From: Planctomycetaceae bacterium
GTDB lineage: Bacteria; Planctomycetota; Planctomycetia; Pirellulales; Pirellulaceae
Length of the DNA stretch: 64,000 nt
Direction of reading: 5' to 3'
Assembly: GCA_027487485.1 (NCBI GenBank)
Contig: JAIYDN010000088.1
Location: 62,001 to 126,000, forward strand
Part shown: one piece after another, positions 18,727 to 25,158 of the stretch
Layout: each line of letters begins with the position of its first letter
Position numbering within the stretch: position 1 is the stretch's first letter
Made by a program: the position numbers and the translations under genes
The notes under the pieces: generated by a model
What the model was told of the DNA's origin: nothing
The model's database searches: none
What the model saw: the letters and a program-made list of their open reading frames with translations, nothing else

Positions 18727-20310
18727 CTATCCTTTTAGCTTGCCAAGCAACTCGACCTTCACTTTATCTTTAACTGTCCTCCAGTCCACGCCAAGTTTCT
18801 TGCCAGCTAGGTCGTATTGGCCCAATTGTGCGTAGACCATAGTAACGTAAAGCTGTGAAACCTCGTCCAAAGTCATTTCGCCGTCCAACAAAGAACGCAA
18901 GAATGCTTCAACACCTAATGCCGGTCGATCAGGAACGCCGTTCAGGTCTACAGCGGGAACGCGGCAATTAGGTGTGTAGGATTTTCGAATCAGGACATTG
19001 CGAACGCATTGCTCCAGTTCCCGAATATTGCCTGTCCAATCGTAACTGTTTCCGAGATGTTGCTCGACCCATTTCACTACCTCGGAGGCAAGAGAATCTG
19101 CTTCTTCGGGTAACTCAATCAAGATCCCTCTTGCAATGAAACGAGTTAACTCAAGTAGGTCTTCCGGGCGATCCTTGAGTTGCTCTTGCAGAGTTGGAGT
19201 GCGAACAATATCGGCACATAGGCGATAGTACAGATCTTCTCGGAATTTACCGCGACCGATCTCAGTTGTTAGGTCGCGATTCGTGGCCGTAACGAATTTC
19301 CCTAGAAAGTAACGTGTCTTCGTTTCGCCAACTCGGGAAAAGGTCCTGGTTTGCAGAACTCGCAGCAATTTCACTTGAATGGAAAGGTCGAGTTCGCCGA
19401 TTTCATCCAGGAAGACCGTCCCGTTTTGTCCACACGCTTCCAACCAACCGATTCGATCACCGACCGCTCCTGAAAAAGAGCCTTTGCAATGACCAAACAG
19501 TTCTGACTCTATCAACGCGGCAGAAAGCGCAGAGAGATTGACGGCATAGAAAGGCTCCAGTTCAGCATCGTCGAAATTTCTTGTTACCGGATTAAACGCT
19601 CGATATCGAGACATACCGATAGCACGAGCGACAAGTTCTTTGCCGGTCCCCGACTTGCCCACAATCAGCGTTGTGATATCCCCCATCGATTGATGAACAC
19701 CCCGAACGTATCTGCTCATGTCGTGGGTAAAGATAGACTCCCATATTGCCGCTCGCAGATTCGCAATTGGCATCGAGCTGCCAATGATGAATTCAAAAAT
19801 GTGGCCGAAAGCACGATCGATTTGAAAGAACACAGAAAAGCAATGAGCTGCGTTAAAGTACGTAGGCAATGCCAACTCTGGCAATTTCAAATACCAGTCG
19901 TAGTCTCTTTGAAACTGCGACCAGGACTTTCCAATCGTATTAGGTCGATCACTGGCTCGACCCACCAGCGGCACCTCATGGATCGAAAAGTGCTTGGCGT
20001 AAAGATGGAATATCACTGTCTCCCGATAGAGATGCTGGTCGTCATCGCTTTGGCACTTTCCAGCCATTACGCGAGGTCGCATTTTGTCAGCTAGAATCCT
20101 GGAATGCTCGAGCAGTAAACTAAAGTTCTTGAAGACGGTTTGGCCTTGAAGATTAGAAGGTAAGTGGATAACTGCAGCACCCGATAGAAAACGATCTCCC
20201 AGTACTTGACGTTCTAGTTCGAGTCTCTCTGGCAAAAACGGATTGCTATATCCGATGCGTGAAAATGCAGTCGCTTCGCGCCGCTCCGCCCTATTCAAGA
20301 AAACCATCAT
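18727..20310 (-). CDS. Sigma-54-dependent transcriptional activator (AAA+)
   Basis: A 527-residue bacterial enhancer-binding protein. The first ~210 residues match no sensor domain that I recognise; they hold no receiver Asp or clear GAF/PAS pattern. The AAA+ domain has Walker A G-K-S-G-T-G-K-E (218-225), the sigma-54 contact loop G-S-F-S-G-A (277-282) where G-A-F-T-G-A is usual, Walker B V-F-L-D-E-I-G-E (299-306) and R-E-D-L-Y-Y-R-L. The C-terminus is Fis-like (G-Q-Y-D-L-A-G-K-K-L-G-V-D-W-R-T-V). The gene is divergent from the radical SAM operon. Their shared spacer contains a -24/-12 promoter and an inverted repeat at enhancer distance, so that operon is the likely target. Confidence 0.93.
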   Translation of the reverse strand: MMVFLNRAERREATAFSRIGYSNPFLPERLELERQVLGDRFLSGAAVIHLPSNLQGQTVFKNFSLLLEHSRILADKMRPRVMAGKCQSDDDQHLYRETVIFHLYAKHFSIHEVPLVGRASDRPNTIGKSWSQFQRDYDWYLKLPELALPTYFNAAHCFSVFFQIDRAFGHIFEFIIGSSMPIANLRAAIWESIFTHDMSRYVRGVHQSMGDITTLIVGKSGTGKELVARAIGMSRYRAFNPVTRNFDDAELEPFYAVNLSALSAALIESELFGHCKGSFSGAVGDRIGWLEACGQNGTVFLDEIGELDLSIQVKLLRVLQTRTFSRVGETKTRYFLGKFVTATNRDLTTEIGRGKFREDLYYRLCADIVRTPTLQEQLKDRPEDLLELTRFIARGILIELPEEADSLASEVVKWVEQHLGNSYDWTGNIRELEQCVRNVLIRKSYTPNCRVPAVDLNGVPDRPALGVEAFLRSLLDGEMTLDEVSQLYVTMVYAQLGQYDLAGKKLGVDWRTVKDKVKVELLGKLKG

Positions 20311-20436
20311 CGTCTCAGTTCTGTTGTTGTCGTTGATTGCATGTCGTCGAACCCGTTTTGTCTGTCGGTTAAGATGGCATTTATTGGTTGATGCATGCCT
20401 CGGAGAGATTCGCCCACTCGGATTTACTCAACTGCA

Positions 20437-20464
20437 AAAAGTGTACATAGCTGGAGACACTTTT
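20437..20464. promoter_or_regulatory. Putative enhancer (UAS) for the sigma-54 activator
   Basis: AAAAGTGT (20437-20444) and ACACTTTT (20457-20464) form a perfect 8-base inverted repeat with a 12-base spacer. It is centred about 140 bases upstream of the -24/-12 element at 20587, where enhancer-binding proteins normally bind as dimers. It lies between the activator gene and the radical SAM gene. That it is the site for this activator is inference. Confidence 0.5.
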
Positions 20465-20586
20465 GGTAGTCGTCGTTCTCAATCCTATATTCTCACCAAG
20501 ATTTCCACCTTTCCCAACCTTGGATTTCTTTCAAAAACAAGGAAAAATCTCCAGTGGCTTCATGGCTCTGTTTAACGAGCGAATTT

Positions 20587-20602
20587 TGGCACAGCATTCG
20601 CT
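20587..20602 (+). promoter_or_regulatory. Sigma-54 (-24/-12) promoter
   Basis: TGGCACAGCATTCGCT matches the consensus TGGCACG-N4-TTGCW at 10 of its 12 specified positions, with the essential GG and GC separated by exactly ten bases. Transcription would start near 20613, leaving a leader of about 60 bases before the radical SAM ATG at 20674. The element faces the operon and lies next to a divergent sigma-54 activator gene, which strengthens the call. Confidence 0.68.
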
Positions 20603-20673
20603 TTCAGTTTGGGCATTGGGAAGACTCGATAAAGAGCGTTTCCCGTACAACCCATTTTTCTCCGAGGAAGATC

Positions 20674-22203
20674 ATGATTCATGTGGACGAAGTAGCGACA
20701 ACAGCAGTATCTGAAGGACAAGTTCTCAACGAAGATTTCGTAATCGAGCAGAACGACTCGCTCAGGCAATTGGTGAAGAGTCGTCTGAAAAAGCCGCAGC
20801 GCCATCGTTTGTTGCATGGATTCCCGCTAGCTGCCAGTATGCCGTATCTTGATCAAGAAACTCGGCGTGCCACCGAACGTGGAGACTCGCGCTTTCAACA
20901 CGACTATCAGCCTAGCAAGCCGCTTTTGGTGGGAGTGCTTCCTCATTCGTATTGCAATCCGAAAATTGCGGGCTGCGGCTTTTGCACCTTCCCGCACGAA
21001 GACTTCAGCTCTCTTAAAGCGACTGCGGCAGTCCACGGGGTCATTCAAGAGATTCAAACAAGAGTCTCAGGCAGTCCATCGCTCGAAGGCAAACCCATCG
21101 ACGCATTGTACTTCGGCGGCGCGACTGCGAACCTTACCCCGGCTGAACCGTTTCGGAAATTGTGCCGCAAACTGAACGAACTCTTTGACCTGCGCGGGGC
21201 AGAAGTCACTCTCGAAGGCGTGCCAGCCTTCTTTCTCAACCGTAAGCCATGGTTGTTGGATATTCTTCAGGAAGAGTTGTCAGCCCGGCACTTCCGGATC
21301 AGTATGGGAATCCAAACGTTCTCCAAGTCCTGGCTAACTAAGATGGGACGCACTGCCTTTGGCGATAGCGAAGTATTTGCTCAAGTTGTAGCAATGGCAC
21401 ACTCGCGAAAAATGACTGTCTCAGGCGATCTGCTTTTCAATTTGCCCGGGCAGTCGCTCACCGAAATGCTCTCGGATATTCAATGCGGCAACAACATCGG
21501 ACTCGATCAAGTCTGCCTCTATCACCTGGTCATGTTTCGTGGACTTGCGACAGAATGGGCTCGCGATCCAGAACTGATCGCAGCGTTACCCAGCAATGAA
21601 AAGGCTGCCGCCAATTGGGAAGCGATCCGAACAACGGCCATCGAAATGGGATATCACCAAACAACGCTCACCAACTTTGAAAAGTCATACTTTCAGGGAG
21701 ATTCACGCGGTTACATCTACGAAATGCGCAGCTTCGATGCAGACCGCTACAACATGATCGGCTTCGGGCCTTCCGGAATATCTTACTCATCCAGCGATCC
21801 AAGCCGCACTGGACTCAAGACGATGAATCCAGAAAGTTCGCTTGAATACATACAGTCGGTGAGGAAGCAATCTCCAATTTGGAATCGATACTATAAATTC
21901 GATGCCGAATCACAACGACTCCTCAATATTACCCGACAGCTTGCGAAACTGTCGATCGATCGTAAACGCTATCAGGAAGTTTTCGGTTCCGATGTCGAGT
22001 CGGACTATCGCAGCCAGCTAGAACTATTGGCGGAGATGGAGTTGATCGAGATTGCTCCAACCTCGATTCGATTGACCGTTCGCGGCATGTTCTACTCCGA
22101 TACGATCGCCTCTGTGTTAGCTCATGGTCGCCATGTACGAACGCTTGGCCGAGAGTCCGCGGAACGCATATCAAGCAGAGGAAACAGTAGCGGCAATATG
22201 TAA
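20674..22203 (+). CDS. HemW/HemN-like radical SAM protein with CX6CX2C cluster motif
   Basis: The ATG at 20674 follows GAGG at six bases and gives 509 residues; an upstream in-frame start at 20554 would lie before the promoter. The domain follows HemN/HemW order: cluster cysteines, Y-F-G-G-A-T-A-N (usually F-G-G-G-T-P), V-T-L-E-G-V, R-I-S-M-G-I-Q-T-F, a D-L-L-F-N-L-P-G-Q strand, and a C-terminal HemN_C-like region (Y-N-M-I-G-F-G-P-S-G). The cluster motif is Cys94-X6-Cys101-X2-Cys104 instead of CX3CX2C, with a three-residue insertion. The protein is therefore a diverged member, and coproporphyrinogen oxidase activity should not be assumed. It heads a probable operon with an M20 peptidase and a serine hydrolase. 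Confidence 0.85.
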   Translation: MIHVDEVATTAVSEGQVLNEDFVIEQNDSLRQLVKSRLKKPQRHRLLHGFPLAASMPYLDQETRRATERGDSRFQHDYQPSKPLLVGVLPHSYCNPKIAGCGFCTFPHEDFSSLKATAAVHGVIQEIQTRVSGSPSLEGKPIDALYFGGATANLTPAEPFRKLCRKLNELFDLRGAEVTLEGVPAFFLNRKPWLLDILQEELSARHFRISMGIQTFSKSWLTKMGRTAFGDSEVFAQVVAMAHSRKMTVSGDLLFNLPGQSLTEMLSDIQCGNNIGLDQVCLYHLVMFRGLATEWARDPELIAALPSNEKAAANWEAIRTTAIEMGYHQTTLTNFEKSYFQGDSRGYIYEMRSFDADRYNMIGFGPSGISYSSSDPSRTGLKTMNPESSLEYIQSVRKQSPIWNRYYKFDAESQRLLNITRQLAKLSIDRKRYQEVFGSDVESDYRSQLELLAEMELIEIAPTSIRLTVRGMFYSDTIASVLAHGRHVRTLGRESAERISSRGNSSGNM

Positions 22204-22251
22204 GGGAATAATGAGCACAAAAAGACCAGCATACACAAAGGAAAGATCTAC

Positions 22252-23793
22252 ATGACACGAAAGAAGAAGATCACGATCAAGCGAGTAATACTACTGTTGC
22301 TCTTTGTGTTCTTGCCCCTTATGGGCGTCTTGAGTTGGAACTATTTGGCGTTCTCGACCAAGCAACTCAAGGTTGATTCCGACCCATTGCAAAAAGTCGA
22401 TAGAGCGATGTTTCAGAGATCGGAGAATAGACTACCGATCCTAGAAAGGTTCATCAGGGCGATCCAGATCCGGTCGGTCCAAACACCAATGTCTCGGCTC
22501 ACAAGCGATTCTGCGCTCTACAGATTCCGAGATTTCATTCAAGAAGCGTTTCCAAGTTTGCATCAAGCACCGTTTGTCCGCAGAACAGGAAAGGATTTTG
22601 GTGACGAGCGGATACCCAGCATTCTCTTGGAATGGCCGGGACAGGCATCTGAACTCGATCCAATACTACTGATGTCGCATTTCGATGTGGTGCCTGTCGA
22701 AGCGAATTCGCTTTCCAGATGGACACATCCGCCATTCAGCGGCCACATGGACAATCAATACATATGGGGGCGAGGCACCTTAGACTGTAAGCACGGTGTC
22801 ATGGCGATTCTCGAAGCGATCAGCAAACTCGCCGCCGAAGGCTTTCATCCACAGCGAACGATCTACATCGCCTTAGGGCATGATGAAGAACTTGGTGGTG
22901 CGGATGGCAACAAGAAGATTGCCGGGTGGTTTCGCGGTCACGGTATTCGATTGCATTCGATCATCGACGAGGGAGGTTGCGTTTTCAATGAGTTTCCTGG
23001 TTTGGATCGGCCAGCAGCTTTGGTCGGTGTTGCGGAAAAGGGCTTTCTGACCGTCGAAATAAAAGTCAACCTTGCAGCAGACAAAGTCGGCCATTCCTCA
23101 ATGCCACCCAAAGAAACCGCGGTGAGTATTCTCGCTAGTGCCATCCATCGTGTCCAATCAGCGCCTTTCCCGTCGCGCATGGACGGTGGACTTCAAGACA
23201 CACTTAGGTTCCTTGGACCCGAGATGCCGTTTAGTAAAAAGTTGGCAATGTCTAACATGTGGTTATTTGGACCATTCGTGAAGCAAACTCTTAGCAATAC
23301 TCCCAGCGGCGACGCCTTGCTTCGCACCACCATTGCCCCAACCATGATCGAAGGGGGAATCTCCGAGACCGTGCTTCCTTTACAAGCAACCGCGAAGCTA
23401 AATCTAAGACTACTTCCTGGCGACAGCATCGAAGGCTCTATCGACTATCTTCGTCAATCGATCAACGATCCTCGTGTCACTCTGAACTCTCTTGGCCAGT
23501 CACGCGGAGCATCGCTGGTATCGGACATCGACTCGGACGCATTTCGAGTACTTCAGACAACCATTCACCAGGTACTACCTGACGTAGTCGTCGCACCGTT
23601 TGTTCTGGTGGGAAGCACCGACACGGTCCACTATTCGGACCTTTGCGAGAACGTCTTTCGATTCATTCCTACGCGATTGTCAGAACGTGATACACAGCGT
23701 TTTCACGGCATCGACGAACGAATCGGAATCGAAAACTACCTGGAGATCATCTCGTTCTTTAGTCAATATGTTCAAAATGCATCGGCGAAGTGA
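22252..23793 (+). CDS. M20-family metallopeptidase, membrane-anchored (PM20D1/CPS1-like)
   Basis: A 513-residue protein with an N-terminal anchor or signal segment (VILLLLFVFLPLMGVLSW, about residues 12-30). M20 metal-site motifs are complete: L-L-M-S-H-F-D-V-V-P, W-G-R-G-T-L-D-C-K with the bridging Asp, and G-H-D-E-E-L-G-G with catalytic and ligand Glu. A late V-G-S-T-D-T-V-H-Y and the C-terminal R-F-H-G-I-D-E-R also match. The long insert and T-H-P-P-F-S-G resemble yeast CPS1 and PM20D1, which cleave Gly-X or N-acyl amino acid substrates. It starts 48 bases after the radical SAM gene with AGGAAAG upstream, so it is probably co-transcribed. Confidence 0.9.
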   Translation: MTRKKKITIKRVILLLLFVFLPLMGVLSWNYLAFSTKQLKVDSDPLQKVDRAMFQRSENRLPILERFIRAIQIRSVQTPMSRLTSDSALYRFRDFIQEAFPSLHQAPFVRRTGKDFGDERIPSILLEWPGQASELDPILLMSHFDVVPVEANSLSRWTHPPFSGHMDNQYIWGRGTLDCKHGVMAILEAISKLAAEGFHPQRTIYIALGHDEELGGADGNKKIAGWFRGHGIRLHSIIDEGGCVFNEFPGLDRPAALVGVAEKGFLTVEIKVNLAADKVGHSSMPPKETAVSILASAIHRVQSAPFPSRMDGGLQDTLRFLGPEMPFSKKLAMSNMWLFGPFVKQTLSNTPSGDALLRTTIAPTMIEGGISETVLPLQATAKLNLRLLPGDSIEGSIDYLRQSINDPRVTLNSLGQSRGASLVSDIDSDAFRVLQTTIHQVLPDVVVAPFVLVGSTDTVHYSDLCENVFRFIPTRLSERDTQRFHGIDERIGIENYLEIISFFSQYVQNASAK

Positions 23794-23925
23794 ATCGACT
23801 TGCAATAACGCAAGCGAGTTCTCCGAGACTCGCGGCAAGAATTGCAATAACGACGGTCTTAAACAGGCGCCGCCACACAAAGCTGCAGAAACGTTAAGCC
23901 ACCAATCCTATTACCAATTCTATTT

Positions 23926-25158
23926 ATGGGTACTGAAATGTCTTTTGCTTTTTCACGTCGCTTTGCGATCCAAGCTGTCGTTCTTGTTGCTGTCCTGAGT
24001 CTGGGCTGGGCTGTTCATTTCTTCCACCGGGCATACCAACTAGAGACCTTATTTGATCCAAATAAAATTGTCACCAACTTTCGCAATATGCATCGGCTGT
24101 TCCGAACGACTCTGGTCCACATGAGTGCTCCCGTCTTGGTATTTGAGGAGACGCCCAAGACGCTGCCCGAGAGCTTCCGTTTCAAGGGCAACACCATCTC
24201 CACAGGTGACTGGATCAACAAGTCCGGAGCTACTGGCTTGGTCGTGATAGCCGAAAACAAGTTGGTCTTCGAGCAGTACTACCAAGGCAATTCAGCTCAG
24301 TCGAGGGCGATTTCCTGGTCGGTCGCAAAATCATTTGTTTCTGCATTGATCGGTTTTGCTGTGGCTGACGGCTCGATCGAGAGCTTACAAGATCCGGTTG
24401 GCAAGTATGTATCACTGCTCAAGAATAGCGGATACGCCGATGTAACTATTCAGGACGTACTGGAGATGGCTTCGGGCATCGAATTCAGCGAGGACTATGC
24501 CGATCCAGATTCAGGCATTAGTCGACTGGGAAGGGATATCTTCTACGGCTACTCGACCAACAACAGTATCTCAACGTTGCAGAAGGCTCGCCCGCCAGGC
24601 GAGGTTTTTGACTACATCAGCGTCAACACTCAGGTTTTAGGCATGGTGTTAGAAGCAGCCACCAAGCAAAAGCTTGCCAACTACATGCAGGAGAAACTTT
24701 GGTCGCGACTGGGGCCCGAAATGGAAGCGCTTTGGTTAACAGACTCCCATGGTACAGAATTAGGCTTTGGCGGATTGTGCATGTGCACTCGCGATTATGC
24801 TCGCTTTGGTCTGCTATATCTGAATCAAGGCCGGAACTTAAAGGGCGAGCAACTGCTTCCATCGCAGTGGATACAAGACTCCGTAACCCCACGCACGGAT
24901 TACCTCAAACCTGGAAACAAGATTTTCGAAGGTATCCCGACGCTGGGCTACGCCTATCAATTTTGGATTCCTCAAGGTGATGAAGGCGAGTTTATGGCAA
25001 TCGGAGTCTACGGGCAATTCATCTATGTCAACCCGACTCGCCGGGTCGTGATCGCCAAGAACTCCGCCTATGCTAATTACACCATAGATGGCGAACGAAT
25101 GGAGTACGAAACGATCGAAGCATTTCGTGCGATCGCACAGCAAGTTGGGAAAAGGTAG
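23926..25158 (+). CDS. Exported beta-lactamase-fold serine hydrolase (class C-like)
   Basis: A 410-residue protein with an N-terminal hydrophobic helix (FAIQAVVLVAVLSLGWAVHF). The nucleophile motif S-V-A-K (SxxK) lies in I-S-W-S-V-A-K-S-F-V. F-D-Y-I-S-V-N follows at the Y-x-S/N position, and G-V-Y-G-Q-F-I-Y-V occupies the third active-site strand. These fit the esterase/6-aminohexanoate-dimer hydrolase side of the family rather than a true AmpC. ATG 23926 is used; 23938 is also possible. A 132-base gap separates it from the M20 gene, so co-transcription is likely but less certain than for the first two genes of the set. Confidence 0.87.
   Translation: MGTEMSFAFSRRFAIQAVVLVAVLSLGWAVHFFHRAYQLETLFDPNKIVTNFRNMHRLFRTTLVHMSAPVLVFEETPKTLPESFRFKGNTISTGDWINKSGATGLVVIAENKLVFEQYYQGNSAQSRAISWSVAKSFVSALIGFAVADGSIESLQDPVGKYVSLLKNSGYADVTIQDVLEMASGIEFSEDYADPDSGISRLGRDIFYGYSTNNSISTLQKARPPGEVFDYISVNTQVLGMVLEAATKQKLANYMQEKLWSRLGPEMEALWLTDSHGTELGFGGLCMCTRDYARFGLLYLNQGRNLKGEQLLPSQWIQDSVTPRTDYLKPGNKIFEGIPTLGYAYQFWIPQGDEGEFMAIGVYGQFIYVNPTRRVVIAKNSAYANYTIDGERMEYETIEAFRAIAQQVGKR

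Follow-up and report, generated by a model that had tools for sequence, protein, structure and literature searches.

A divergent sigma-54 activator and a candidate enhancer beside a HemN-fold radical SAM operon in a planctomycete genome

The stretch analyzed here, a 64,000-nucleotide window of the Planctomycetaceae bacterium assembly GCA_027487485.1 (contig JAIYDN010000088.1, positions 62,001 to 126,000; source genome 7.49 Mb in 114 contigs), holds a sigma-54 enhancer-binding activator gene (18727..20310, minus strand, 527 aa) that is divergent from three co-directional plus-strand genes. Across a spacer of 363 bp these encode a HemN-fold radical S-adenosylmethionine (SAM) protein (20674..22203, 509 aa), an M20 metallopeptidase/aminoacylase-like protein (22252..23793) and a NylB-like serine hydrolase of the beta-lactamase fold (23926..25158). 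Neither of the gaps between them (48 and 132 bp) contains a sigma-54 element or a terminator-like site. We conclude, with a probability of about 0.72, that the activator, bound at an enhancer, drives this divergent operon from a sigma-54 promoter. It would bind beside its own gene at a site of the type TGTACA-N5-TGTACA, the window copy of which lies at 20432..20446. Upon a signal at its all-helical N-terminal domain it would assemble as a hexamer on the enhancer, which would then loop to RNA polymerase-sigma-54 at the -24/-12 element (20587..20602) and switch on the radical SAM, M20 and NylB-like genes from a start near 20613. Hexamer formation and DNA looping are general behavior of this activator class. 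The gene order, the promoter with its conservation and the enhancer motif of the family are shown by the sequences; DNA binding, activation, joint transcription of the three genes, signal and substrate are inferred. All features of an initial annotation made from the sequence alone were re-found at their positions. The longest frame of the radical SAM gene begins with GTG at 20554, yet this codon would precede the promoter, and ATG 20674 is kept as ATGATTCA in locus L029, the nearest relative, and in L045; thus the ATG is the likelier start.

The activator carries an AAA+ Sigma54_activat domain at residues 209-365 (PF00158, E 1e-46; 158.9 bits, cut-off 20.2). Ahead of it lies an all-helical domain of about residues 1-203, modeled as eight helices and no strand (pLDDT, the predicted local distance difference test, 88.9 for the activator model). 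The initial annotation could match the first ~210 residues to no sensor, and this still holds: no Pfam match was found for this domain of the window protein (two single weak ones among 57 members), and sequence/profile and fold comparison with the PDB gave nothing clear. Across 57 such domains eight residues are invariant, including N23 and F25 of an NPFLP motif. At the C-terminus the family consensus suggests a helix-turn-helix-like segment; no helix-turn-helix model passed its cut-off in the window protein and eight relatives, and weak matches of this kind occur at about 474-504 in L049 and L086.

Relatives of the activator were collected from several sources. Of the 59 other genomes covered by the relatives search, 15 have a full-length copy, and one partial copy was found as well; 44 loci came from a contig collection and five further ones adjoin radical SAM genes. 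The closest activator among titled contigs (77%) belongs to an uncultured Pirellula metagenome-assembled genome and sits on the same contig as L029. According to the contig records, the 44 loci of the contig collection belong to Planctomycetota, Acidobacteriota, Myxococcota, Verrucomicrobiota, Lentisphaerota, Hydrogenedentota and Pseudomonadota, labels that may err since most are metagenome-assembled genomes. As judged from these sequences, the activator family appears to span several bacterial phyla, with its own N-terminal sensor and a recurring DNA site. The N-terminal alignment, searched against genomes across the phylum, matched 28 of 246, source genome included, and provided a later, held-out set; 25 regions were taken and one was a duplicate, leaving 24 loci. 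Before counting we removed loci with nearly identical spacers or on a contig already represented (L044, L056, L059, L069, L070, L085, L150; the activator gene of L069 is broken), loci whose activator has hardly any upstream sequence (L075, L077), a partial activator (L025) and two partial entries at contig starts (G645, G604). L063 was kept despite just 247 bp upstream. The tree of 82 rows and the partner table retain L085, a near copy of L071, and leave out the other removed rows. Chance expectations for motif, repeat and half-site spacing are based on first-order resamplings, not exact dinucleotide shuffles.

The -24/-12 element TGGCACAGCATTCGCT (plus strand) has its GG at 20588-89 and its GC at 20600-601, with ten bases between. 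It is the sole match with at most one mismatch to TGGCACRNNNNTTGCW in the 64 kb, both strands considered; with up to two mismatches there are 25 matches in the window, where 20.9 are expected, i.e. no excess. Scored with a general sigma-54 weight matrix built from the consensus, it reaches 14.6, the highest value of all window positions on both strands. An element aimed at the radical SAM gene, as initially annotated, is thus borne out. It is also conserved: L029 keeps it as TGGCACACCATTCGCT, and it recurs in the divergent direction across relatives of the activator. At 61 loci the best element within 450 bp upstream of the activator had a median score of 13.4 when pointing away from that gene and 5.5 when pointing towards it, and random windows gave a median of 6.0 and a 95% level of 11.0. 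This level was exceeded by elements pointing away at 36 of 57 non-redundant loci, against 2 in the opposite direction; the held-out loci gave 11 of 24 against 1 at their own 95% level of 10.1. A score of 11 was reached at 45/81 loci overall, and 11.0 at seven of the nine loci in which the activator adjoins a radical SAM gene. All seven radical SAM orthologues without an adjoining activator lack a clear element (scores 3.3-11.0, 500-bp windows). Thus the element tracks the activator rather than the radical SAM gene, which on comparative grounds supports the original proposal that this activator acts on its divergent operon. The source genome has one rpoN match (Sigma54_DBD, 207 bits).

When words and dyads were counted de novo in the 57 spacers, TGTACA and GTACA-N5-TGTAC emerged. 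A site of the type TGTACA-N5-TGTACA at 8/10 or better is present in 44 of these loci, compared with a mean of 4.45 and a maximum of 8 after resampling. In the held-out set it was found at 18 of 24 loci, compared with 1.16 after resampling and 1.2 in other parts of these loci, with a maximum of 5 in either control. Over 81 loci, half-sites lie 11 bp apart in 46 cases (0.2 expected), 22 bp apart in 16 (0.3) and 33 bp apart in nine (0.4); the 11-bp pairs are the dyad itself and the wider ones mostly tandem copies. Among the 36 loci with both enhancer and promoter, the enhancer stands 93-98 bp from the -24 element in ten and 115-119 bp from it in 17, two peaks separated by two 11-bp steps; in the remaining nine the distance is between 82 and 163 bp. 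The probable enhancer of the window, CTGCAAAAAGTGTAC (plus strand, 8/10 to GTACAN5TGTAC), is centered 148 bp from the -24 element, about three 11-bp steps beyond. L029 has a 9/10 copy in the same place, at 149 bp, and the block is kept in the spacer alignment. The motif is not enriched in the source genome as a whole, and the activator is therefore a local, not a global regulator. At many loci the start codon of the activator follows the enhancer at a distance of 13-60 bp, so that self-repression through this site would be possible. By eye, the spacers of L104 and L107 have a different sequence in place of the enhancer, with CATTTTCTGTC/GACAGAAAATG-like arms that are clearest in L107 and perhaps represent an altered recognition site.

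What the operon does is a separate question. The radical SAM protein has the HemN fold over most of its chain (best PDB fold match 1olt, E 7e-19, TM-score 0.63/0.72; profile match E 1.7e-21), and its top NCBIfam score is to ChuW/HutW (TIGR04107, 103.5 bits). One might therefore place the operon in heme or porphyrin metabolism, with a HemN/HutW-type enzyme and the hydrolases as incidental neighbors. We consider this rather unlikely. The curated HemN, HemW, HutW and STM4012 models all miss their cut-offs widely (400 for TIGR04107; 86.3 bits against 380 for the STM4012 family, NF006067). The cysteine motif is CX6CX2C (Cys94, 101 and 104), invariant in 14/14 aligned orthologues, and not the canonical CX3CX2C, the defining spacing of radical SAM enzymes. 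No heme gene was recognized beside the radical SAM gene, though no search was aimed at heme families among the neighbors, and amide hydrolases account for the identifiable neighbors, apart from a ceramidase-family gene in each of two relatives (L036 and L102). HemN (1olt) and the radical SAM methyltransferase NocN (9p2u) share the fold and the HemN_C region with the window protein, which differs from both in its cysteine spacing, an invariant N-terminal PQRHRLLH, a near-invariant terminal Met and in reaching no curated family. Orthologues at E <=1e-60 were found in 14 of 397 genomes of the class, source included, and the activator adjoins seven of them; a sample of 294 genomes of the phylum added three further ones with 40-44% identity. 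Three weaker matches (L117-L119) stayed outside the neighbor analysis. The C-terminus reads [HFYN]-M in 15 of 16 proteins examined, preceded by G in 11, and MG in L112 (window 22180-22203); such a conserved end behind a variable linker suggests a functional tail. The orthologue of L029 (1492-3018) is interrupted by a single in-frame stop, at codon 199, which may reflect a pseudogene or an assembly error.

The M20 protein (PF01546, E 1.9e-24; 87.2 bits, cut-off 24.6) has H143, D178, E212/E213, D239 and H485, to which we ascribe metal-ligand and catalytic roles, and these are conserved in L045 and L046. It matches the PRK08262 models, which we take to be a PM20D1-like group, with E down to 5.6e-115 and 384.9 bits, below the cut-off of 503. 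The third gene product (PF00144, E 2e-29; 103.2 bits, cut-off 27) has its SxxK motif as SVAK at S132. Its nearest solved relative is 8rlj, a serine hydrolase named no more specifically than as related to class C beta-lactamases, and after that come 6-aminohexanoate-dimer (amide) hydrolases; the class C beta-lactamase model NF033085 was missed (19.5 bits against 415). Thus domains and catalytic residues are shared with aminoacylase/PM20D1-like M20 enzymes (the likeness to PM20D1 itself being our assumption) and with the NylB 6-aminohexanoate-dimer hydrolase. The two window proteins differ from these in their clustering with a radical SAM gene and a sigma-54 activator and in that each is probably anchored in the membrane by an N-terminal hydrophobic segment.

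These observations also bear on the idea of an operon for peptide maturation or degradation, in which the radical SAM enzyme would modify a precursor that the two hydrolases trim. A radical SAM gene with a peptidase is a common layout for maturation, and peptidases occur among the M20 enzymes. However, no precursor gene is evident, though a short one could be missed as the listing covered open reading frames of at least 100 aa. The best solved match of the M20 protein is aminoacylase-1, amide hydrolases are among the matches of the third gene, and relatives carry a ceramidase or, as in L045 together with an M20 gene, a C45 acyl-amidase. Peptide processing therefore strikes us as unlikely. The N-acyl/amide chemistry common to the partners, together with acyl-lipid partners elsewhere in the family, suggests envelope-lipid processing instead, a view drawn from the gene neighborhood. 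Accepting it tentatively, as possible but short of probable, the HemN-fold enzyme and the two anchored amide hydrolases would remodel or degrade an acyl-lipid or N-acyl-amide compound. The sensor would then detect an envelope or lipid signal. The more general pathway of the initial annotation, in which the radical SAM enzyme modifies something and the hydrolases process it, is a guess.

Across the family the divergent partners change. At 82 loci they are VIT-vWA proteins (29), acyl-lipid genes (15), HemN-like radical SAM genes (9), B12-binding radical SAM genes (6), large membrane proteins (3), M20 without radical SAM (2) and other or unclassified genes (18). Pfam and NCBIfam matches on representatives identified VIT, vWA, Rhomboid and rhombosortase; an acyltransferase together with an AMP-ligase or MFS; LPLAT-GNAT, thiolase, acyl-CoA dehydrogenase, ceramidase and AAT/C45; and the B12-binding radical SAM protein. 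All other assignments rest on tblastn (matches with E no higher than 1e-6 in the 7 kb considered) with proteins from the same loci as references, so partner classes missing from these references land among the others. For the same reason the downstream-side control is biased, as the references were drawn from the upstream sides. Some contigs end early and limit the detection of partners, and a 28% PlsC-like match in L081 was left out of the acyl class. On the tree of 82 rows the partner label needs 30 changes (shuffled labels 46.6, minimum 6). This is fewer than with shuffled labels but far above the minimum, and thus partners were swapped while sensor and enhancer stayed. Seven of the nine activators beside radical SAM genes form one starred set of eight with the M20-only locus L046; L103 and L107 fall outside. 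L046 and L049 likewise have an M20 gene adjoining the activator. In five of the nine radical SAM loci none of the reference partner classes lies beside the radical SAM gene, the contig of L029 ending soon after it, and in L109 an aldehyde dehydrogenase gene follows downstream.

Some of the other loci deserve mention. In L053 (4760-7864), L030, L048 and others a VIT-vWA protein is divergent from the activator, with a rhombosortase-like gene in most of them; the proteins inspected end in a glycine-rich GGGGGAI-type tail, a transmembrane segment and a basic end. L169, L170, L149, L159 and L172 have, beside the activator, operons with varying sets drawn from a B12-binding radical SAM gene, an alpha/beta hydrolase, an acyltransferase-ligase of the Aas/LplT type and a membrane protein of very large size. 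In L032, L037 and L038 the only recognized partner is a multi-helix membrane protein of 740-960 aa, and the one tested, from L032, had no Pfam or NCBIfam match.

Two further alternatives concern the DNA sites. The initial annotation took the inverted repeat AAAAGTGT/ACACTTTT (20437-20444 / 20457-20464) as the binding site of the activator. The repeat is real, perfect over 8 bp and 12/14 over arms of 14 nt, and lies at a plausible distance. However, perfect 8-bp arms separated by 3-20 bases occur in 9.6% of 500 resamplings of the 363-bp spacer, i.e. in nearly one of ten, and in the window at about 0.56 per kb. Its right arm is changed in L029, where the GTACAN5TGTAC-like site, overlapping only the left arm, is retained, and the motif of the activator family has another geometry. 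Consequently, the repeat is probably not the operator, and its role as binding site is quite improbable. That a sigma-70-type promoter drives the operon, with the -24/-12 element as a relic, is highly improbable, since the 9/12 site in its favor (TTGGTA-17-TATATT, 20463-20491) is one of eight in the region where 4.7 +/- 2.6 are expected, and this stretch is not kept in L029, whereas the -24/-12 element is.

Several observations nevertheless weigh against our overall reading of control and function, this weak and chance-compatible sigma-70-like site among them. No element above the 95% level was found at 21 of the 57 and 13 of the 24 held-out loci, nor at two of the nine activator-radical SAM loci (L103, 10.9; L109, 6.5), and L112, a radical SAM orthologue without an activator, scores 11.0, about that level. 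The window enhancer is a degenerate copy, and four of the nine loci lack one at 8/10 (L045 and L103 have 7/10; L104 and L107 have none even at 7/10). The sigma-54 contact loop reads GSFSGA in the window protein and in L029 instead of GAFTGA, and most of 60 listed family members have GAFTGA, GSFTGA or GAYTGA. As to the partners, VIT-vWA/rhombosortase, the largest class, does not represent lipid enzymes, and 18 of the 82 are unclassified. Finally, conservation of the unit does not extend to the M20 and NylB-like genes. A stable set of four genes is not supported; activator and radical SAM gene do stay together, in nine loci, but M20 accompanies them in two of these and the NylB-like hydrolase in the window alone.

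A sigma-54 activator beside its target is of a well-known kind. NifA, RtcR and NorR-type activators share with the window protein the AAA+ Sigma54_activat core, a divergent -24/-12 target, an upstream enhancer and a loop of the GAFTGA type, though here in the variant GSFSGA. In contrast, the unmatched N-terminal domain and the TGTACA-N5-TGTACA enhancer set the window activator apart, and it misses all curated sigma-54 activator models by far (best NifA, 187 against 528.85 bits). To our knowledge, there has been little characterization of sigma-54 activators from planctomycetes and related bacteria. PMC12316311 cites an in silico consideration of Pirellula sp. strain 1 activators with nearby sigma-54 promoters (Studholme and Dixon, 2004). 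The commonest partner of the activator, a VIT-vWA protein with a GGGGGAI-type tail in about four cases inspected, together with a rhombosortase, resembles the GlyGly-CTERM/rhombosortase pairs treated by Haft and Varghese (2011; PMC3237569), in the main text of which the words 'sigma-54' and 'transcriptional' are absent. The rhombosortase model TIGR03902 was just above its cut-off in L053, the sole locus tested, and the window differs in having no such pair. In the open-licence literature we found no record joining this activator family, its enhancer or this operon.

One might speculate further, although we regard this as doubtful, that the all-helical domain is a new acyl-lipid sensor. The activator family would then serve, across phyla, as a local sigma-54 response to the damage or turnover of envelope lipids, with one sensor and one 11-bp-phased enhancer code placed on changing lipid operons (Aas/LplT, LPLAT-GNAT, B12-binding radical SAM, HemN-like radical SAM with N-acyl-amide hydrolases, VIT-vWA/rhombosortase). 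In that case the HemN-fold enzyme with its CX6CX2C motif would represent a new radical SAM family with acyl chains or N-acyl amides as substrates. Given the conserved sensor, the preferred spacing and an enhancer code that can be read in the sequence, the operon of each activator could be predicted, genome by genome. Such predictions would tie unknown envelope genes to one signal. The operon also points to a radical SAM family with unusual cysteine spacing that is directly testable.

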